DNA of 64,000 nt from an uncultured Acidobacteriia bacterium. Lineage in GTDB: Bacteria; Acidobacteriota; Terriglobia; Bryobacterales; Bryobacteraceae. A model generated the notes under the pieces. It was not told the origin of the DNA, did not search any database, and saw nothing but the letters and a program-made list of their open reading frames with translations. Location of the stretch: NCBI GenBank assembly GCA_903925975.1, contig CAIYHG010000106.1, forward strand, positions 1-64,000. Direction: 5' to 3'. Shown piece after piece: positions 5,581-15,478 of this stretch. The first letter of the stretch is position 1; every line of letters begins with the position of its first letter. Both the position numbers and the translations under genes were made by a program.

Positions 5581-6395
5581 GCCAGCAGGGCGTCCGCAAC
5601 CGCGCGCGGAATCGCCAGATTGTTGTTGTGGCCCGTGCCCAAGCGGACTTCCGGCTTCATGGCCCCGTGATAATCGGAACCGCCCGTGACTTTCATGCCG
5701 TACCGCTGGGCGAGTTGCAGGTATTGGCTCGTCTGGCCGGGCTCGTGATCGCTGTGGTAAGCCTCAAGCGCTTCGAGGCCAAGCGGGCGCATCCTCTCCA
5801 GAACATCTTCCAACCGGCCGTGGAGCCGCGACGGGTGTGCGACGGAGGCGATTCCGCCGGCTTCCCGGATGCGCTTCACGCCTTCTTCCAGACTGGGTTC
5901 CAGCCTGTGCACGTAGGCTTTGGCGGATTCGTCCAGGTATTCGTCGAAAGCGTGCCGGAGGTTCTTCACGTACCCTTTATCGAGCATCACCTTGGCGAAA
6001 TGGGGGCGGCCCGTCATCCCCCGTCCCAGTGCCTCGGCTTCTTCCACGCGAATATCGAACCCTAACTCGTGCAGCCGTGCGGCGAGGCGCACGTTGCGTT
6101 CCCGGCGGGTAATCTGGAGTTCGCTCACCCACGCCCGGAAGCCGTCTCCCGGAGCCACCGGGAAATAGCCCAACAGATGCACCGAACGCCCGTCCAGCTT
6201 GGTGGAAAGCTCGATTCCGCAGAGCAGTTCGACGCCGGCCGCCCTGGCGATGGGAACGGCGCGGTCGTAGCCAGCGAAGGAGTCGTGATCCGTGATGGAG
6301 AGGACTTCGACGCCCGCGCGAACGGCTTCCTCGATTAACTCGCGCGGAGATAACGATCCGTCGGAGTGGTTGCTGTGAGTGTGAAGATCGATCAA
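5562..6395 (-). CDS. PHP-domain phosphoesterase
   Basis: This 277-residue protein has the four PHP motifs: HTHSNHSDGS at residues 5-14, TDHDS near 36-40, GIELS near 61-65, and the C-terminal AHPSR and SDYHG. These His/Asp residues bind a trinuclear metal site. The length and order match the TrpH/YciV (RNase AM) group, which hydrolyses nucleoside 3',5'-bisphosphates and short 5'-phosphorylated RNA ends. It converges with the folate-binding protein gene and overlaps its end. The start ATG at 6395 directly precedes MIDLHTHS, as usual for the family. The general class is certain; the substrate is inferred. Confidence 0.85.
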   Translation of the reverse strand: MIDLHTHSNHSDGSLSPRELIEEAVRAGVEVLSITDHDSFAGYDRAVPIARAAGVELLCGIELSTKLDGRSVHLLGYFPVAPGDGFRAWVSELQITRRERNVRLAARLHELGFDIRVEEAEALGRGMTGRPHFAKVMLDKGYVKNLRHAFDEYLDESAKAYVHRLEPSLEEGVKRIREAGGIASVAHPSRLHGRLEDVLERMRPLGLEALEAYHSDHEPGQTSQYLQLAQRYGMKVTGGSDYHGAMKPEVRLGTGHNNNLAIPRAVADALLAHSTRT

Positions 6396-6512
6396 GCTAT
6401 CTGAGAACCCGAGTTCTTCAGTTTAGCCTAAAACCTCAAATTCCTCCCGCTCGGCCGCTCCCCCGCCGGGTGGCGGCCGGCGCCGGCTTAGGGGCGGGGC
6501 TTTCCGAAGCGG

Positions 6513-6518
6513 TAATAT
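6513..6518 (+). promoter_or_regulatory. -10-like TAATAT for accA, possible leaderless start
   Basis: TAATAT overlaps the first of two in-frame ATG codons (6517) and ends eight bases before the second (6526). Transcription at the normal distance would begin at 6525-6526, which favours the second ATG on a leaderless message. Confidence 0.4.
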
Positions 6519-6525
6519 GTTGGGA

Positions 6526-7356
6526 ATGACCCCCGAAGCTGAACAGGGCGCCCGGGAGCCGCATCCGGCATGGCGCAGGGTATTGCTGGCGCGGCATCCG
6601 AAGCGCCCGCACTCGCTCGATTACATCCAGGCTCTGATTGCGGATTTCGATGAGATTCACGGCGACCGCTTGTTCGGCGACGATCCCGCCATCGTGGCGG
6701 GCTTCGGCACGTTCCGGGGCCGCCCGGTCGCGGTAGTGGCGGAGCAGAAGGGCCGCGACACCAAGCAGAAGGTGTTTCGCAATTTCGGAATGCCGAAGCC
6801 CGAAGGGTATAGGAAGGCCCTGCGCGTGATGCAGACCGCGGCTAAGTTCGGCCGCCCCGTGATTTCCCTTCTGGATACGCCCGGCGCGTATCCGGGCATC
6901 GACGCCGAGGAGCGCGGGCAAGCCGAGGCGATCGCGCGCAATTTGCGCGAAATGGCGCGCCTGGCCACGCCGGTGATTGCCGTGTGCATCGGGGAAGGCG
7001 GAAGCGGAGGCGCTTTGGCCCTGGGCGTGGGCAACGTGGTTCTGATGCTCGAAAACGCGGTCTATAGCGTGATCTCGCCGGAAAGCTGCGCGGCCATTAT
7101 CTACCGCGATGCCGCCAAAGCCGAGCAGGCCGCCGCGGCGTTGCGCCTCACCGCGCAGGACCTGCGAGAGTTGGGTCTGATCGATGGCATTGTTCCAGAG
7201 CCCCCCGGAGGGGCCCAGGAAGACCCGGCCGCCGCGGCCAGCCTGTTAGGCGAGCATCTGGCCGCCCGCTTGGAGGAACTCTCCGCGTTCGACGGGCGCG
7301 CTCTGGTTGACCAGCGTTACGCCAAGTTCCGCGGTATGGGAAACTTCTTCGCATGA
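6526..7356 (+). CDS. accA: acetyl-CoA carboxylase carboxyltransferase subunit alpha
   Basis: AccA pairs with AccD to transfer the carboxyl group from carboxybiotin to acetyl-CoA, giving malonyl-CoA for fatty acid synthesis. Family segments seen are [85 protein letters not shown] and [10 protein letters not shown]. At about 276 residues it is shorter than the 319 residues of the E. coli protein because the N-terminal helical extension is reduced. ATG 6517 is an alternative start three codons upstream. The stop overlaps the next gene by four bases (ATGA). Confidence 0.95.
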
Positions 7357-7619
7357 AGAAGACCACGTGGATCGCCGTATTGTTCGGGGTCGCCGTGGTG
7401 GGCTTCGTGCTCTATTCCAGCCTGGGCGGGGCCCGCGTGAGCTGCGAGGTTTGCATGAGCTTCGATGGCGGGCGAGACTGCCGCACCGCGTCCGCGGCCA
7501 CGCAGGAGGGGGCGCTGCGCACCGCGGTTACCAACGCCTGCGCGCAGTTGGCCTCGGGTGTGACCCAATCGAATCAATGCGAGAATACCCCGCCCGAGTC
7601 GGTGCGCTGGCTCAAGTGA
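7353..7619 (+). CDS. small Cys-rich exported or membrane-anchored protein
   Basis: This 88-residue protein starts with two Lys and a hydrophobic helix (about residues 5-23), so it is membrane-anchored or secreted. A short domain follows with five Cys (SCEVC, RDC, NAC, NQC). It overlaps the end of accA by ATGA, so translation is probably coupled, but nothing in the sequence suggests a role in lipid synthesis. I do not recognise the family. The codon use is like that of its neighbours, so it is probably a real gene. Confidence 0.6.
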
Positions 7620-7704
7620 GCGTCCATTTCAGGCCGAGCTAAGGTCTGGCTTCGGCGCGCGTCTGATTGCTTTGACCGCCACAGGCGTCGAAACCCTGTC
7701 GCGG

Positions 7705-7710
7705 TAGAAT
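7705..7710 (+). promoter_or_regulatory. -10-like TAGAAT upstream of the efflux adaptor gene
   Basis: TAGAAT occurs in the context GGTAGAAT, which also appears upstream of dnaE (23371-23378); a related GGTACAAT precedes tRNA-Leu. TTGACC at 7672-7677 is too far away to be a standard -35. The gene start lies about 60 nt downstream. Confidence 0.3.
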
Positions 7711-7771
7711 GAAAGTTGAACTCCCAATCAGCGTATTGCGTCTTGTTTGATGGGAAGGGAGCGTCTGCGTC

Positions 7772-9199
7772 TTGAGCTCAAAGTGGAAGGTTGTCATCAC
7801 GCTGGCCGCGGTTCTTGTTGCGGCGATTGGCGTTTACGCCAGCGTGAGGTACAGTAAACGCGGCGTGGTGACGGTGCAAACCGGGCGAGTGGTCCGCCAG
7901 GACCTGGCCAGCGTGGTTACCGCCTCCGGCGAAATCAAGCCTAAGAACTATATCAACATCGGCGCCAACGCGATGGGCCAGATCACGGAGATTCCCGTTC
8001 GCGAGGGCCAGCGCGTCGCCAAGGGACAACTTCTGGCCCGGATCGAAGACACGCAGCCGGTGGCCGACGTGGACGCCCAGAAGGCCACGCTGAGCGCCGC
8101 CGAAGCCGACACTACCGCCTCGGAAGCCGGCCTGAAGGCCGCCGACGAGAATATCCAGATGCTGCAGGCCGCGATCTCCCAAAGCCAATCCGATCTGGAG
8201 CGGTTCAAAGCCGATTACGACCGCGCCGAGGCCCAGTACAAGGAGCAACTCCTCGCCCGCCAGGTTTTCGATTCCGCCAAGTTCGCCTATGAGGGGCAGA
8301 AATCCGCCGTGCAACAGGCGCAGATGCGCATCGCACAGGCCCGGGCGCAGCGGGAACAGGCCGCCGCCAATCTGGCATCGTCCCAAAAACGCATTACTCA
8401 GGCGAAGGCCAACCTCGTCCGATTCAATGACGTTCTCCAGAAGCGCAACTCCTTCGCTCCGCTGGAGGGAGTGGTAACGAACTTGCCCGTGCGGGTGGGA
8501 GAAACCGTCGTTCCAGGCCTTCAGAATCAAACGGGTACGTTGATGATGACCATCGCCGACATGTCCCAGATCACGGCCGAGGTCAAGGTGGATGAGACGG
8601 ATATCGTCAACGTGCAACTGGGACAACCGGCCGATATCACCATCGACGCCATCCCCAACCGGACCTTCAAGGGCCGGGTGACCGAGATCGGAAACACGGC
8701 GATCCTCCGTTCTACGGGTGTAGCAGCTTCACAAAGCGCGATTTCCAGCCAGGAAGCAAAGGACTTCAAGGTGGTTGTCGCCCTGGAGGCGCCCCCGGAA
8801 GAGATCCGTCCCGGACTTTCTTGCACGGCAAAGATAACCACAGCCACCCGTCGGAACGTCCTTACAATACCGATCCAGGCGCTTACGATCCGGCAAAAGG
8901 GCGATTTGGAGTCCAAACCGGCGGTTACATCCGGCGCCGGGGCGGCAGCGAAACCGGATCCGGTGGCCGAAAAGGCCCGCAAGGAAGAGATTCAGGGCGT
9001 TTTCGTGGTTTCGGCTGGCAAGGCGGTTTTTCGCAAGGTGGAGACGGGTATAACGGGCGCCACGGATATTGAGGCGCTTAGCGGTTTAGGCGAAAGTGAC
9101 GAGATTATCACCGGTACTTATCAGGTAATCCGTACCATTCGCAATGACGCCCAGGTGAAGATAGACAACACGGCCCCCGTGACGCAGGACAAGTCTTAA
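7772..9199 (+). CDS. MacA/HlyD-type periplasmic adaptor of an efflux system
   Basis: This 475-residue membrane-fusion protein has an N-terminal anchor helix (about residues 7-25), a first half of the lipoyl domain (MGQITEIPVREGQRVAKGQLLARI), a long Ala/Gln/Glu-rich coiled-coil hairpin (about 90-215), the second lipoyl half (NSFAPLEGVVTNLPVRVGETV) and beta-barrel segments (ITAEVKVDETDIVNVQLGQ). It should link an inner-membrane transporter to an outer-membrane channel. The start is TTG with a purine-rich GGGAAGGGA upstream. A 19-bp gap separates it from the ABC ATPase gene, so the two are one operon. No permease or TolC gene is adjacent. Confidence 0.9.
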   Translation: MSSKWKVVITLAAVLVAAIGVYASVRYSKRGVVTVQTGRVVRQDLASVVTASGEIKPKNYINIGANAMGQITEIPVREGQRVAKGQLLARIEDTQPVADVDAQKATLSAAEADTTASEAGLKAADENIQMLQAAISQSQSDLERFKADYDRAEAQYKEQLLARQVFDSAKFAYEGQKSAVQQAQMRIAQARAQREQAAANLASSQKRITQAKANLVRFNDVLQKRNSFAPLEGVVTNLPVRVGETVVPGLQNQTGTLMMTIADMSQITAEVKVDETDIVNVQLGQPADITIDAIPNRTFKGRVTEIGNTAILRSTGVAASQSAISSQEAKDFKVVVALEAPPEEIRPGLSCTAKITTATRRNVLTIPIQALTIRQKGDLESKPAVTSGAGAAAKPDPVAEKARKEEIQGVFVVSAGKAVFRKVETGITGATDIEALSGLGESDEIITGTYQVIRTIRNDAQVKIDNTAPVTQDKS

Positions 9200-9217
9200 A
9201 GAAACGAGAATCATCTC

Positions 9218-9964
9218 ATGTCAGCGGTTGACACTGAAAAGTCGGAATTACTCAAGCGCGGCGAACAATTGAAGCGGGATGGCATCGTCATCCGCACCTA
9301 CGATCTCAAGAAGACCTACATCATGGGCGATGCCGAGATCCACGCCGTCTCGGGGGTGGACGTTGAGATCAAGCGCGGCGAGTACGTCGCGATCATGGGT
9401 CCGTCCGGTTCGGGCAAGTCCACCTTGATGAACCTGATCGGCTGCCTGGATACTCCTTCGAGCGGCAAATACTTCATCAACGGGAATCTGGTCAGCGAGA
9501 TGACCGACGACGACCTGGCGCGCATCCGGAACAAGGAAATTGGGTTCGTTTTCCAGACGTTCAACCTGCTGCCGCGCGCCACCTCCCTGCATAACGTGGA
9601 CCTGCCGCTGATCTACGCCGGCATCGCGCCGGCCAATCGCCTCGAAATGGCGAAGAACGCCATGAAGCAGGTGGACTTGGAACCCCGCATGTACCACAAG
9701 CCCAGCGAGCTTTCCGGCGGCCAGCGCCAGCGCGTTGCCGTAGCCCGCGCCCTGGTGAACAACCCCTCGATTCTGCTGGCCGACGAACCTACGGGCAACC
9801 TGGATACGGCCACCGGCAACGAAATCATGGCCCTGTTCGAACGGTTGTACCAGCAGGGCAACACGATCATTCTGGTGACACACGAGCCCGATATCGCCCT
9901 CCACGCCCACCGCGTGATTCACGTCCGCGACGGCAAAGTGGAACGCGACGAGAGAATCAAGTAG
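9218..9964 (+). CDS. ABC transporter ATP-binding protein, MacB/LolD type
   Basis: The 248 residues form a complete ABC ATPase: Walker [10 protein letters not shown] at 61-69, Q-loop [18 protein letters not shown], signature [15 protein letters not shown], Walker [13 protein letters not shown], and the H-loop VTHEPDIA. The Q-loop and NLD segments are those of the MacB/LolD/FtsE group, which work with FtsX-like permeases in mechanotransmission (macrolide efflux, lipoprotein release, toxin export). With the adaptor upstream it would form a tripartite pump, yet no FtsX-fold permease follows. The permease must be encoded elsewhere or the locus has been rearranged. A stem-loop follows the stop. Confidence 0.92.
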
Positions 9965-9992: not shown

Positions 9993-10086
9993 AGTTCTTC
10001 AACAACACCACCGCGCGCTGGCGCCTCGCCGTGCGTTGGGGGAGCGAGGCCTCCTGCGGGCACTTTTCTGGAAATCCGTCCCTGCC

Positions 10087-10734
10087 TTGCGTGTTTTTCC
10101 TAATCCCCATCAGCCCAAACTGATCGTATATCAATCCCAATCATGGCGATTACTGGCTGGTTTCGTATTTTGTCTTCCTATGTTGGGGCAGAACCGTATG
10201 ATCACCAATGCAGCCAACGGAACACTGGCGAACGTGGTGTCGTTCGGGTCGTTGGCGCCGGGTGCGAATACCACGGCCGTTCCTCTTCAGACGCAGTTCC
10301 GTCTGTGGAGCCGGAATAGGTGTGGGTACCACTTGGACGCTCAATGCTCAGCGTTGACTGTGACCCCAAACCCCGGCGTCACCGACCAAGGCGGTTCCAG
10401 AATCGCCCTGTCGGATGTCGGCATAGGAATCGCGGTTGCGCGCGGCAGTGGCGCAATGCCGGGCACGGACAGCATTCAAACCGGGTTCAACTATAACCCG
10501 GGGAGCGTGGCGGCGCCCGGTGGCGTGACCCCGTACACGGGTCGTGCCAGCGGGCAGGCGACTCTCGCGGACCTGACTTTGAGCCGTACGATTCTGAGCG
10601 GTTCGCAGATTGGAACGGCTACGGACGATAGCCGGTACGTCGCGGTGACGATGACATTGGGCGTGGTCCCGCAGTACTTCACGCCATCGACTTTTTCAGC
10701 GTTGATTACACTGACCATTGCGAATGGGCTCTAA
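10087..10734 (+). CDS. secreted subunit-like protein of a chaperone-usher-like locus (start probably frameshifted)
   Basis: The mature part, from about 10190, is a beta-rich secreted protein of some 180 residues. It shares landmarks with the next gene's product: SRNRCGYHLDAQC against RSNKAYKINASAT, SDVGIGIAV against TDIGFGITAI, and a C-terminal VPQYFTPSTFSALITLTIA against LPQYFTPAGFASVVTLTIS. The alternating hydrophobic C-terminus resembles that of fimbrial subunits. The hydrophobic signal segment RLLAGFVFCLPMLGQ has no ATG in frame. ATG 10143 lies directly before it but is out of frame by one base; removing one G would give MRLLAGFVFCLPMLGQ. The position given is an in-frame TTG and is only a placeholder. 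Either the start carries an indel, or an unusual start is used. Confidence 0.55.
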   Translation: MRVFPNPHQPKLIVYQSQSWRLLAGFVFCLPMLGQNRMITNAANGTLANVVSFGSLAPGANTTAVPLQTQFRLWSRNRCGYHLDAQCSALTVTPNPGVTDQGGSRIALSDVGIGIAVARGSGAMPGTDSIQTGFNYNPGSVAAPGGVTPYTGRASGQATLADLTLSRTILSGSQIGTATDDSRYVAVTMTLGVVPQYFTPSTFSALITLTIANGL

Positions 10735-10794
10735 GAAGAACTAATTCAGGCCGTTTTGGCCCGTGAAGTAGAAAGAAGAGAAGAAGAGGAAGAG

Positions 10795-11454
10795 ATGACA
10801 AAACGCATTCTAGTTCTATTTGCCGCGTGCGCTCTGGCCGCCGTGGCCCAGACCAGCGGCACGATCGGCATCAGCGGAACCATTCCGGAGGCATTTTCGC
10901 TTTTGAGTTCCTCCGACGGTAACCTGGCTTCGAGTACCGTATTGGGCGCCTGGACCATTGCCAACAACGCCACCATGCTCGCGATCACGCCGGTTGACGT
11001 TCGGGTTCGCAGCAACAAGGCCTACAAGATCAACGCATCCGCGACGTTCACTAAGAGCGCCGAGGGAGCGGCCGACGGCGGCGACGGGCTCGCGGTGACG
11101 GATATCGGATTTGGAATTACTGCAATCGATGCCACGGGAGCGAATGTCGCAAACAAGTTGGCGGGCGACCACACGGTGGTGGCCAAGTTCAATTACACAG
11201 CCGCCGGTAATCTTTCCCTGGCCGCGGCGGATGGCCTGTCGCCTTTCGTAGCCGCTTCGAAAGCCACGCTGAACGACATCAGCGGCGCTAACGACGGCGC
11301 ACAAGTCGTATCGGGAAAGCGCATCAGCACGAAGGGGAACATTGCGACCCAGACGAACTTTGTAAATTACAAGGTGGGCCTCGCGATGTTGCCGCAGTAC
11401 TTTACGCCCGCGGGCTTTGCGTCCGTGGTCACTCTGACTATCTCCTCCAACTGA
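10795..11454 (+). CDS. secreted subunit-like protein, possible major pilin of a chaperone-usher-like system
   Basis: This protein of about 219 residues has a clean signal peptide (MTKRILVLFAACALAAVAQ). The mature protein starts TSGTIGISGTIPEAFSLLSS. It has no Cys after the signal and is rich in Ala, Thr, Ser and Asn, with an all-beta pattern. The C-terminus alternates polar and hydrophobic residues (SVVTLTISSN), as expected of a fimbrial subunit beta strand. ATG 10795 was chosen because a long purine-rich stretch (AAGAAGAGGAAGAG) precedes it. It is the second of two tandem paralogous genes, followed four bases later by the chaperone-like gene. A coat-protein-U or archaic-pilin relationship is inferred from layout, not proven. 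Confidence 0.7.
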   Translation: MTKRILVLFAACALAAVAQTSGTIGISGTIPEAFSLLSSSDGNLASSTVLGAWTIANNATMLAITPVDVRVRSNKAYKINASATFTKSAEGAADGGDGLAVTDIGFGITAIDATGANVANKLAGDHTVVAKFNYTAAGNLSLAAADGLSPFVAASKATLNDISGANDGAQVVSGKRISTKGNIATQTNFVNYKVGLAMLPQYFTPAGFASVVTLTISSN

Positions 11455-11458
11455 GATC

Positions 11459-12340
11459 GTGAAGGAGCGGGGCAAGAATCTGTTCGGCAGCGCCGCGCTT
11501 TGGGCGCTGCCTATCCTTGCTGTGGCGAGCGGTCTGCCCGGTTGGTCCGCCACGGCAGGCTTGGGCTTGAACCCGGGCAGGCTGGAGATCGAGGTCAAGC
11601 CGGGTGGGCAAAAGACCGTGGGATTCTACGTCGAAGCCCCGCCCTCCGAGGAGACTGTGCGGGGCCGTGTCCTGGTTAGTTTCACGGATTGGGGGCTTAA
11701 GGAAGACGGCTCCATGACGCTGTCGGATTCCGGGACGGAGCCCATGTCCGCCGCCAAGTGGATCACTTTCAGTCCCTCGGCAGTGAGCATATCTTCCGGC
11801 CAGCGCGCGCTGGTCCGGGTGACAGTGGATGTTCCCAAGGATGCTCAACCCGGTACCTATCGAACGGGATTGCTGGTTCAGGAGCGGCCCCCAACCATCA
11901 TCCCCAAGGCCGGGGAGCATCTAGTGGCGTTTCATTTCCGCTACATGGAAACGCTGTATGTCATCGTGCCCCCGGTAGCGGCCGATCCCCATCTGCTCGA
12001 TGCCGTGTTGGAGGTCTCGGGCAAGGGCCTCAACGTAGTTTGCCGTATGCGCAATGAAGGGTCGGCGCTGGTTCGTCCCTACGTGACATGGAGCTTGCGG
12101 GCCGAGGACGGGCACGTGGAGATGGAGGATATTTCCCGTGAGACCACCGTCCTGCTGCCGCACTCTACTCTGGCGGAACCGATCCCGCTTTCCGATTTGC
12201 CCACGCCCGGACGCTATCAGTTATCGATGGCTGCAGACTTCCGTGACGGCAAGCCAATTCAGTCGATCGTGAGGACGGTCGAAATCTCCAGCCCAGCCCC
12301 GGGAGCCGACACTGGTCAGAGCACGGCCCAGCCGCAATAG
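11459..12340 (+). CDS. periplasmic chaperone-like protein with two Ig-like domains
   Basis: This 293-residue protein has a signal peptide (residues 1 to about 31, ending GWSATA) and two Ig-like halves. The first (about 32-150) contains PGRLEIEVKPGGQKTVGFYV and the PapD-like run WITFSPSAVSISSGQRALVRV followed by PGTYRTGLLVQE. The second (about 170-280) has NVVCRMRNEGSALVRPYV and TPGRYQLSMAADF. Fimbrial chaperones have the same build: two Ig domains, a conserved SP-x-x-V-x-I-x-x-G-Q strand and a YR step before strand G1. At about 262 mature residues it is longer than PapD. The start is GTG four bases after the previous stop, so translation is probably coupled. Confidence 0.65.
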   Translation: MKERGKNLFGSAALWALPILAVASGLPGWSATAGLGLNPGRLEIEVKPGGQKTVGFYVEAPPSEETVRGRVLVSFTDWGLKEDGSMTLSDSGTEPMSAAKWITFSPSAVSISSGQRALVRVTVDVPKDAQPGTYRTGLLVQERPPTIIPKAGEHLVAFHFRYMETLYVIVPPVAADPHLLDAVLEVSGKGLNVVCRMRNEGSALVRPYVTWSLRAEDGHVEMEDISRETTVLLPHSTLAEPIPLSDLPTPGRYQLSMAADFRDGKPIQSIVRTVEISSPAPGADTGQSTAQPQ

Positions 12341-12346
12341 GTTGCC

Positions 12347-14941
12347 ATGAAGCGGCTCTGGATCGCCGGATGCTTTCTGGCGCTCTGCGGAATTCGCGCC
12401 GCGGCACAGGAGCCCGCCATCGTTGTGAACGGGACGCCTCTCACGGCTACCCTGCCTTCTCAGCAAGTCGGAGGCGAACTCCAGATTCCACTCGGGCCGG
12501 TGGCGCGCGCGCTCGGAGCCGACGTCTCCGCCGTGCAGGATCAGAGCCTGACCGTGCGCCGGGCGGACGGCGCCAAACTGGTCTACGATGGCCGCACCGG
12601 CGAGATCCACCTCGGCGCAACCACGGTGGGGCAGGTTCCTAATTTTCGCCTGGTACGCATTGCAGCGGATGTGGACCAGTTGCTGTTCCCTGTCCCCGGG
12701 ATGGTCGCCCTGCTGGGCCTGACCGCCCGCCTTGACGACCAGAGGAATGTCCTCTACCTGGATTCCCTCCCTGGCGGAGCCTTTTCCGCCTCCGCTGGAA
12801 ACGGGTTTGCTTTCACGGGGCTGGACTACGGCTACTCGATGGTGAGTAACGGGGCGATATTCTCCCAGGGTGGAAACTTGGGCGCACAGGCACTGGCGGG
12901 CAACGTCACGTTGGCCGGTTCGCTCCAGGCAAGCAATATCCCCGGCGGGCAGGCGGTCTACCTGAATCAGGCAGCGGTGCGCGCCGGCCTGCCGGATTCC
13001 CGGTCGTTTCTGCTGGGGGACCAGGGCGCCTATTCGGGCGTGGAGGCGTTGACGAGTTCGCTTCGCGGCGCGGCTTATGAGCAGCCGCTCGGTTCCTTAC
13101 GGGCAAGCGTCTATGCGGGCCGCGGCATTGGAACCACGGCGGCCACGTTCGGGTCGTCCATCAGTTCCTACGATACGAATCTGGCGGGGATCAGCTTGAA
13201 GAAGCAGACGCAAACGCGGTCTTTTTCGGCGGGAGCTAACTGGTTCAGCGGTCCCCGCGCCAGAGGCGCCACGGCAGGGCTGGCGTTCGGCCAGAACCAG
13301 GGGTGGAATCAATTCAAACTGCAGCTCGCCGGCGGATCGTTTTCAGGCCTCAGTCGGCGCTCGTCGCCAACCCCTCCCGCCGCGGCACAGGCGGGTGGAA
13401 CCTCGCCGGCCGTCGCCGTATCCGGGAGCCAGTTCGCTAGAGTCAAAGGCCCCGCCTACGGCCTCAGCGTTTCGGAGGCCTTTTTGCCTTCCTCTCGCCT
13501 CTCTGTGAGCGGGCAGTTCGATTACTATTCGCGTTCCTTCTTGACGGCCGGCGACGATGCGCGCTTCAACGCGGCTTCGAGCGGCGCGCTGGCCGCGAGC
13601 TTCCGCCCCTTTCGCCTCCTGACGCTGAGTGGCAGCGCCGGTTCCCGGACATACCTGCTGGGCGACCGACGCCCGTCGCGCAGCTATTCGTCCGGCGCGG
13701 GTTTTGTGCTGCCCGGCCGGCATCCCGCGCAACTCAGCGTGTCGCGGACGCTCCTGCTGGACCCGGCGGGCCCGGGGCGATTGGAGCTTCGTCAATACTC
13801 CGCCATGATGCCCTCCCTGGGCAGGTACACCGCATCGGCGTTTTACTCGGAGACCATAGCGGCCGGGGCCAAGACGTCGAATCTTAACGGCGTGGCGGGA
13901 GTGAATTTGTACCGCTTCGGTCGTCTGGATCTCCACTTGCAGAACCAGTTTCACGCCAGCCGCCGGGCCGGCGGCGAGTGGAATCTGCAGCTAGGGCGCG
14001 GGGGCGGCTATATCCGCGCGGGACTGGATCTGTTGCAGGCCAGGTCCGGGGAGGCGGGCCTTATGCCGCTGGCGGGTTTGCGGCTGCGGTTGTGGAGGAC
14101 CCACGTACTGGACGTGACGTATGTCCGCGATCCGGGAATGCACACGCTGCAGGTCCGGCTGGGAGGCAAGCTCATTCAACCGCAAGAGCTTTCGCGCGAC
14201 AGCAGGGGCGCGCCGCTGGCCGCCGCGCGCACGAGTATCTCGGGATTCGTCTTCATCGACACCGACTACAACGGCTCGCTCGGCCCCGGCGACAGGCCGA
14301 TCTCCGACACCCGCGTGTGGCTGGACAATGGGCGCCAGATCCTGACCGACGCCACCGGGCATTACAGGTTCGATGGCGTGATGCCGGGAGGACACGTTGT
14401 GCGTTCGGAGTTGGATGGCGTTCCGGCAGGCTATGTGTTCGCCGAATCGGGCCTGCAAACCATGGCAGCTCTTCCGAACCGCGACAACCGGTTCGATGTC
14501 CGCGCAATCAAGACCGGACAGATCGAGGGCATCGTCACTTACCTCGACTACGGCGAAGACCCGGACGAGCCCGTGGAAAAGCCGCTGCCGGACGTTCACA
14601 TCCTGGCAAGCGGGGATTTGGACACGTTTTCGGAAATGAACGGCAGGTTCCTGTTGGGTGACCTCGCGCCGGGAACCTATTCCCTGCATCTCGACCCCGA
14701 CGGTCTCCCCGAGGGATACGCACCCCAACCGGCCTCGGTTGTGGTTCGGGTGGAGGCAGGCGTTGCATCGCGAGACGTCAAGTTCCGGTTGGCCGTTCCC
14801 CCGAGGCCGGTGATTGAGATCCGCGCCCCGGCGCAAACGGTGACCCTGCCGCCTCCGCCGCCCACGCCGCCGGCGAGCAGGACTCCGAACCAGCAGGAAG
14901 AGAAGCCCTCGGTGTACCGGCAACCCAGGCAGCCGGATTAG
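12347..14941 (+). CDS. usher-like outer-membrane barrel protein with N-terminal CuAO-N1-like and C-terminal SdrD-B-like domains
   Basis: This 864-residue protein has a signal peptide (residues 1-21, ending AAAQ). The segment at about 25-145 (VVNGTPLTA, PLGPVARALGADVSAVQDQSL, MVALLGLTARLDDQRNVLYL) matches the pattern of copper-amine-oxidase N1 domains as used in peptidoglycan or surface proteins. Residues of about 150-620 have the alternating Gly/Ser/aromatic pattern of a large outer-membrane barrel. Two Ig-like SdrD-B or CarboxypepD-like domains follow: ISGFVFIDTDYNGSLGPGD with GHYRFDGVMPGGHVV, then GQIEGIVTYL with GRFLLGDLAPGTYSL. The tail is Pro-rich. In gene order and size it stands where an usher would. 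A classical usher signature was not recognised. Confidence 0.6.
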   Translation: MKRLWIAGCFLALCGIRAAAQEPAIVVNGTPLTATLPSQQVGGELQIPLGPVARALGADVSAVQDQSLTVRRADGAKLVYDGRTGEIHLGATTVGQVPNFRLVRIAADVDQLLFPVPGMVALLGLTARLDDQRNVLYLDSLPGGAFSASAGNGFAFTGLDYGYSMVSNGAIFSQGGNLGAQALAGNVTLAGSLQASNIPGGQAVYLNQAAVRAGLPDSRSFLLGDQGAYSGVEALTSSLRGAAYEQPLGSLRASVYAGRGIGTTAATFGSSISSYDTNLAGISLKKQTQTRSFSAGANWFSGPRARGATAGLAFGQNQGWNQFKLQLAGGSFSGLSRRSSPTPPAAAQAGGTSPAVAVSGSQFARVKGPAYGLSVSEAFLPSSRLSVSGQFDYYSRSFLTAGDDARFNAASSGALAASFRPFRLLTLSGSAGSRTYLLGDRRPSRSYSSGAGFVLPGRHPAQLSVSRTLLLDPAGPGRLELRQYSAMMPSLGRYTASAFYSETIAAGAKTSNLNGVAGVNLYRFGRLDLHLQNQFHASRRAGGEWNLQLGRGGGYIRAGLDLLQARSGEAGLMPLAGLRLRLWRTHVLDVTYVRDPGMHTLQVRLGGKLIQPQELSRDSRGAPLAAARTSISGFVFIDTDYNGSLGPGDRPISDTRVWLDNGRQILTDATGHYRFDGVMPGGHVVRSELDGVPAGYVFAESGLQTMAALPNRDNRFDVRAIKTGQIEGIVTYLDYGEDPDEPVEKPLPDVHILASGDLDTFSEMNGRFLLGDLAPGTYSLHLDPDGLPEGYAPQPASVVVRVEAGVASRDVKFRLAVPPRPVIEIRAPAQTVTLPPPPPTPPASRTPNQQEEKPSVYRQPRQPD

Positions 14942-14962
14942 AGGCTGCCACACGAAGCAGGC

Positions 14963-15478
14963 TCAGCCGCCCAGGTTCAACTGAAAGCTGACGATCCCGG
15001 AACCGGCTGCTTGAACCGACGGAAGCAGGCGCACTAGGATTGCGTTATCGGGAGTCACATTGTTGCCTCCGCTGGAGACACGGACGCCCTGCACGCAGAC
15101 GGCTACGGCGTCGGGCGCTAGTTCCGCTGCGCTCATCACCGCATCGAGAGCGCCCCGCGCCAGGTGCGCGATGCCGGCGGCAGGCTCGGCTCTCGCTGGT
15201 ACGATACCCAAGGCGGTGGCCGGGGGACCCGACCACTCCGCAGTGATCCGGTAGGCGCAGTTGGTGCGCACCGATAAAACGATGGGCCTGGGATCGGTTT
15301 GGCCTGGAATCACACTGAGACGGATCAGTGTGCCGGAGCTTACCAAGGGCATGGCGTTGCCCGGATCGACCACCTGGAGTTGCCCGGAGCACGGTATCCG
15401 TCCCGTGACGGCAATTACGCCTTGGGCAAATACTTGGCCCACCCCAAGCGCGAGGAGCAGAAGTGCCGGACGGAGCAT
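14963..15478 (-). CDS. secreted protein related to the pilin-like subunits of the adjacent locus
   Basis: This 171-residue protein has a signal peptide (MLRPALLLLALGVGQVFAQ). The mature part GVIAVTGRIP and SVRTNCAYRITAEW line up with GTIGISGTIP and RVRSNKAYKINASA of the protein at 10795-11454, and the C-terminus again ends in an alternating strand (GIVSFQLNLGG). It has three Cys (IPCSG, RTNCAY, AVCVQG). It converges on the usher-like gene with 21 bp between stops. A good ribosome site (GAGGTGA) precedes the ATG. A tip or minor subunit is a reasonable guess. Confidence 0.65.
   Translation of the reverse strand: MLRPALLLLALGVGQVFAQGVIAVTGRIPCSGQLQVVDPGNAMPLVSSGTLIRLSVIPGQTDPRPIVLSVRTNCAYRITAEWSGPPATALGIVPARAEPAAGIAHLARGALDAVMSAAELAPDAVAVCVQGVRVSSGGNNVTPDNAILVRLLPSVQAAGSGIVSFQLNLGG

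Follow-up and report, generated by a model that had tools for sequence, protein, structure and literature searches.

Do five neighbouring genes for exported proteins in a soil Acidobacteriota genome, matched by no pilus family in Pfam or NCBIfam, encode a chaperone-usher system? Chaperone-usher pili serve as a main model for how proteins are secreted and fibres assembled; a survey built on the Usher and PapD profiles would overlook a family such as this one. The genes lie on contig C106 of a 3.87 Mb draft genome (G000), within the 64,000-nucleotide stretch analysed here (the window). A sequence-only reading had described them as a fimbria-like operon of no clade that it recognised, and the lack of a Pfam or NCBIfam pilus family for all five proteins agrees with it on the last point. 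We find a real, conserved and unannotated chaperone-usher-like system, a variant too diverged for standard databases. As a divergent chaperone-usher-type system, it probably exports small beta-sandwich subunits and polymerises them into a surface fibre.

Gene layout and the chaperone

All five reading frames for exported proteins were present as first described. On the forward strand, two tandem subunit-like genes, P0001 (10087..10734; TTG start, weak signal peptide) and P0002 (10795..11454; with a signal peptide), are followed by P0003 (11459..12340; GTG start, 293 aa), a predicted periplasmic chaperone with two Ig-like domains, and P0004 (12347..14941), an 864-residue putative usher-like outer-membrane assembly protein; P0005 (14963..15478), a further exported subunit-like protein, lies on the reverse strand. 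Gaps of 4 bp between P0002 and P0003 and of 6 bp between P0003 and P0004 make these three genes operon-like. Single window proteins retrieved nothing specific in a PDB sequence search, and the window's own genome holds no PF00577 usher. Upstream, at 7772-9964, the window encodes a membrane-fusion protein and an ABC ATPase with no permease gene after them, an arrangement shared by two congeneric genomes.

Compared by hhalign with five archaic chaperones, the chaperone profile of the window branch reached a probability of 97.6% (E=3.4e-12) over 208 columns covering both domains, and other branches of the family scored similarly (B 97.6%, C 98.9%, F 96.6%); by the same method FimC, an accepted homologue, scores 71% against archaic chaperones. 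Shuffled and reversed chaperone profiles stayed below 1%. For the window branch, no other Ig-like protein reached 3%; branch C gave one value of 28%, over 32 columns. Domain by domain, the window branch matched archaic chaperones at 95.7% for the first domain and weakly, at 27%, for the second (95.5% in branch C), and cross-domain pairs did not exceed 2.2%. A window-type chaperone profile built without archaic sequences also finds the archaic chaperone beside a PF00577 usher in genome G308 (E=1.4e-11). P0003 did not pass the curated cut-off of Pfam PapD_N, which the chaperone of a group F relative did. Searching with PapD, usher and SCPU profiles, as had been proposed at the outset, thus gave no Pfam match for the locus; profile-profile comparison did connect its chaperone to the archaic ones, and the two-domain Ig-like chaperone of the sequence-only reading is borne out. 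Judged by its profile, P0003 is a homologue within the PapD superfamily.

Individual positions show both retention and change. P106 and R135 of P0003, 29 residues apart, align with CsuC Pro59, which is invariant in the superfamily, and with CsuC Arg89, which is typical of non-classical chaperones (PMC4654587); most relatives keep the proline and carry histidine at the Arg89 position. R41 was also noted, and Arg206 is invariant in the chaperone alignment. The position aligned with CsuC Tyr196, the carboxylate anchor of domain 2 together with Arg174, appears to be valine. In our reading, P0003 would bind subunits arriving in the periplasm and cap their open groove, with the C-terminal carboxylate of the subunit held in the cleft between its two domains.

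The outer-membrane protein and its relatives

P0004 consists of an N-terminal domain resembling Cu_amine_oxidN1 (residues 24-140; 12416..12766), a putative beta-barrel (residues 141-622; 12767..14212) and two C-terminal beta-sandwich domains (residues 628-815; 14228..14791), the last matching Pfam SdrD_B / CarboxypepD_reg (E=3e-8 and 5e-9) and modelled at a pLDDT of ~80. The Cu_amine_oxidN1 match falls below the cut-off in P0004 itself (E=0.035) and above the Pfam cut-off in its homologues in L085 (E=1e-7) and G080 (E=4.8e-8). That this domain might be a diverged archaic usher N-terminal domain was considered and found unsupported (profile probability 0.4%). P0004 has no Pfam Usher match, and its barrel profile scored 0.6% against PF00577 ushers.

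The AF2 model of P0004, built from distant rows only, was poor (pLDDT 56.1, pTM 0.39); its ~23 barrel strands are unusable as a strand count, and alone it is too weak to decide on a plug. Even so, the first 9 Foldseek matches of this low-confidence model were ushers (5.8e-9 to 6e-6), and no other outer-membrane barrel scored better than 1.7e-3. VIA-align preferred 16-strand porins for residues 134-491, a match that we put down to the low quality of the model.

A branch B homologue of P0004, the L118 protein, was modelled from 16 rows with higher confidence (pLDDT 79.4; barrel mostly at pLDDT 80-95). The AF2 model has ~26 long strands over residues 25-528 and two beta-sandwich domains at 548-725. 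It lacks an usher N-terminal domain, and nothing inserted between its strands is large enough to be a plug. Its first 13 Foldseek matches in the PDB were FimD/PapC (E 3e-18 to 1e-9), covering the barrel and both C-terminal domains, and MtrB came after the ushers (1.6e-9); the alignment runs along FimD 138-833, from barrel start to CTD2. VIA-align gave FimD a Z of 17.6 over model residues 24-539, MtrB 16.2, and placed other large barrels near too. With MtrB scoring so near FimD, the barrel by itself does not decide the matter, and the order of the domains counts as well.

In three branches, the C-terminal domains align in one register with those of archaic ushers (52-77%). The window branch and branch B match over 557 columns (99.8%), chiefly along these domains; for the barrel alone the value is 46%. 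Group F (L099, L101) combines a PapD_N-positive chaperone with a barrel related to archaic ushers (97%) and C-terminal domains related to the window family (93-97%), and is a bridge between the two. The models therefore predict an usher-like fold for the 864-residue outer-membrane protein of the sequence-only reading, seen in the L118 relative and with a weaker signal in P0004 itself; in place of the 24-strand barrel also expected for it, and of the plug of classic ushers, the relative's model shows ~26 strands and no plug. As sequence, plug and N-terminal domain all depart from the canonical pattern, we would keep the pore apart from the PF00577 ushers.

In the proposed mechanism, the C-terminal domains of P0004 would take up chaperone-subunit complexes and its barrel would thread the subunits outward. 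Because the modelled relative lacks both the plug and the usher N-terminal domain, this pore must be gated, and must recruit its complexes, in another way than known ushers; a natural usher without these two parts would offer a direct test of which usher parts are essential.

Two further observations concern this protein family. Some usher-like proteins end in a SPOR domain (residues 976-1035 of the protein encoded at 6255-9413 of L084, and one A2 member), which suggests peptidoglycan binding. The closest usher homologue from the same family, on a short contig (L031, 871-3350 on contig C332 of G080), is split over two frames, either because the gene is broken or because the assembly is wrong there.

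Subunit-like proteins, conservation and spread

P0001 and P0002 are homologous, as first read (BLASTP 28% identity, E=1e-16), and both have a counterpart in L084 (P0002 at E=2.4e-46), where the P0003 homologue is 48% identical. Around the start of P0001 (window 10036-10240) there is no ATG, TTG is the sole start codon and the signal region is atypical; P0001 may be a mis-started or decaying copy. Subunit profiles of several branches match one another, and SCPU pilins gave a weak profile match to the subunits of two other branches (85%, 77%); Pfam assigned the subunits to no pilin family. Their N-termini carry strand-like segments that, judged by eye, are similar to those of self-complementing pilins, including a donor-strand-like TSGTIGISGTI segment in P0002.

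The alternating hydrophobic C-termini that had been offered as a mark of pilins are present. They do not discriminate: among the proteins of the window's group, roughly one internal segment in four alternates just as strongly, and true SCPU pilins fare no better than these subunits. We dropped this criterion. With C-terminal alternation uninformative and the SCPU matches weak, donor-strand exchange is something that we infer for these proteins: P0001 and P0002 would enter the periplasm via the Sec pathway and, once exported, the N-terminal strand of each subunit would complete its neighbour, giving a polymer. Such a fibre might be adhesive; no adhesin was identified for the locus. In L042, a 654-aa exported protein encoded after the usher-like gene (6381-8345, reverse strand) has a pilin-like segment at its start and is a possible tip protein.

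P0005 shares an N-terminal VRxNxAYxI motif with P0002, and the third related subunit claimed by the sequence-only reading is present on the opposite strand; the relationship is weak (E=2e-4 in one pairwise comparison, profile probability 48%), no homologue was found in the related loci examined, and its membership of the operon is uncertain. Three other loci have an extra subunit-like gene directly 3' of the usher-like gene and on the same strand (L119 6214-6729, L121 7086-7604, L132 10146-10655), the slot that P0005 occupies, in reversed orientation, in the window.

The core of the locus is conserved. Among 20 loci of the phylum picked by their chaperone alone, a large outer-membrane-type protein (547-1312 aa) adjoins or nearly adjoins the chaperone in every case, and 1-5 small exported proteins accompany most. 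Bryobacteraceae loci with a chaperone match show the same adjacency, as do 17 Bryobacterales contigs, barring those cut by contig ends or frameshifted. That the genes stay together across relatives, a check suggested from the start, therefore applies to subunits, chaperone and outer-membrane protein, and not to P0005. The closest relative, in G458, belongs to another family (48% for the chaperone, 40% for the usher). The P0004 barrel found no match in any of three congeners, and the two whose syntenic contig is long enough have other genes after the ABC ATPase; the locus is therefore sporadic, and it has probably moved horizontally.

In our Acidobacteriota sample, the chaperone family profile matched in 34 genomes out of 297, some few of these hits perhaps being archaic chaperones, versus 9 for PF00577. 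The family also reaches beyond the phylum, as tblastn of plasmids found the system in Deinococcus: plasmid loci (L153 5941-11514 and L154 5913-11659) encode the set of an exported protein, a chaperone, a small exported protein and an outer-membrane protein of ~1000 aa, all annotated as hypothetical. The proposal of an undescribed Acidobacteriota family consequently holds for an unannotated, divergent system, and fails as a limit to that phylum, as Deinococcota carry it. Usher-pattern scans of viral contigs, with a first pass over genome contigs, yielded no relatives, and the literature within our scope, which took in few subscription journals and no preprints, yielded nothing on such ushers in Acidobacteriota or on DUF4402 with ushers.

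Rival readings and likeness to known systems

Against the PDB, the chaperone family profile matched WxLIP1 of Enterococcus faecium over both domains (9i25, 9i1y; E=3.7e-6) and nothing else below 0.2, PapD entries included. The window-branch chaperone matches WxLIP at 96.4% as a whole (74.5% for the first domain, 92.0% for the second), whereas WxLIP compared directly with archaic chaperones gives 4.6%, against the 97.6% between the window family and the latter. When 7.3 Gb of plasmids were searched by tblastn with a branch C chaperone, the matches comprised Deinococcus homologues, annotated fimbrial chaperones and DUF916/DUF3324 proteins, together with unannotated places of like kind in Enterococcus faecalis and one in Nonomuraea without a listed gene. 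P0003 itself matches DUF916 and DUF3324, as homologous domains, below the Pfam cut-off and has no hydrophobic C-terminal helix.

These matches give the best surviving alternative its footing, namely that single subunits are displayed without polymerising, as WxL proteins are held by WxL-interacting proteins, and that the outer-membrane protein is a mere secretion pore or anchor. The lack of a Pfam pilin match for the subunits and the plugless barrel of the modelled relative would fit it too. We nevertheless regard it as unlikely: the outer-membrane partner has the fold and domain order of an usher, a type of gene missing from the WxL clusters that we read; the N-terminal segments of the subunits look by eye like those of self-complementing pilins; and WxL proteins gave no match when compared directly by profile with the window-family subunits. 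Deinococcus subunits, compared with these subunits in the same way, gave none either.

A second alternative takes the locus for an ordinary archaic (sigma) chaperone-usher operon drifted below Pfam thresholds, and gains from the homology of the chaperone to archaic chaperones and from the archaic operons present in the same phylum, in the 9 genomes counted above. It seems to us decidedly improbable, as those same-phylum operons are readily seen by Pfam (PapD_N, Usher and SCPU were all recognised in L135) and the window family is not, the barrel is undetectable against archaic ushers, plug and N-terminal domain are missing from the relative's model, the subunits differ, and the link of the chaperone to WxLIPs is about as strong. 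Chance adjacency, or some unrelated envelope function of an Ig-like periplasmic protein beside a porin-like barrel, could draw on the porin matches of the poor P0004 model and on how common CarboxypepD_reg domains are, and is very improbable given that the adjacency recurs in the inspected relatives of two phyla, which largely refutes it, and that the chaperone homology has collinear domains.

A divergent chaperone-usher-type system hence remains our reading, and by profile comparison its chaperone bridges PapD-like chaperones and WxLIPs, two systems without a direct mutual match. Since the family matches both, a common origin is a fair reading. We tentatively suggest, at somewhat less than even odds, that chaperone-usher pili and WxL/WxLIP share one ancestral subunit-chaperone pair working by strand complementation, with the window family as a living link whose Acidobacteriota/Deinococcota branch uses plugless ushers. 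The 2023 paper on WxLIP is silent on chaperones and pili alike, and we found no literature tying WxLIP to pilus chaperones in a search mostly outside subscription journals and excluding preprints; the link would open the origin of a large surface system of Gram-positive bacteria to testing.

Compared with the archaic CsuC/CsuD pili, the locus is alike in gene order, in a two-domain chaperone of collinear homology with the invariant proline and characteristic arginine positions (PMC4654587), and in an outer-membrane pore with two beta-sandwich domains on its C-terminal side. It differs in lacking Pfam matches to PapD_N, Usher and SCPU as well as barrel sequence similarity, in its other subunits, in the apparent loss of the tyrosine anchor, and in the missing plug and usher N-terminal domain of the modelled relative. 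FimD and PapC are the best Foldseek matches of that relative (E=3e-18); PapC, however, forms a barrel of 24 strands whose beta6-beta7 loop contains a plug (264-324), and its N-terminal domain is separate (PMC4356140), whereas the L118 model has ~26 strands and no plug-sized insertion, and in the window branch a Cu_amine_oxidN1-like domain takes the place of the usher N-terminal domain. WxLIPs (DUF916/DUF3324), for their part, differ in their C-terminal transmembrane helix, their monoderm hosts and the usher-free clusters that we read, and resemble the P0003 family in their two collinear Ig-like domains and in a gene placed beside those of small secreted proteins.
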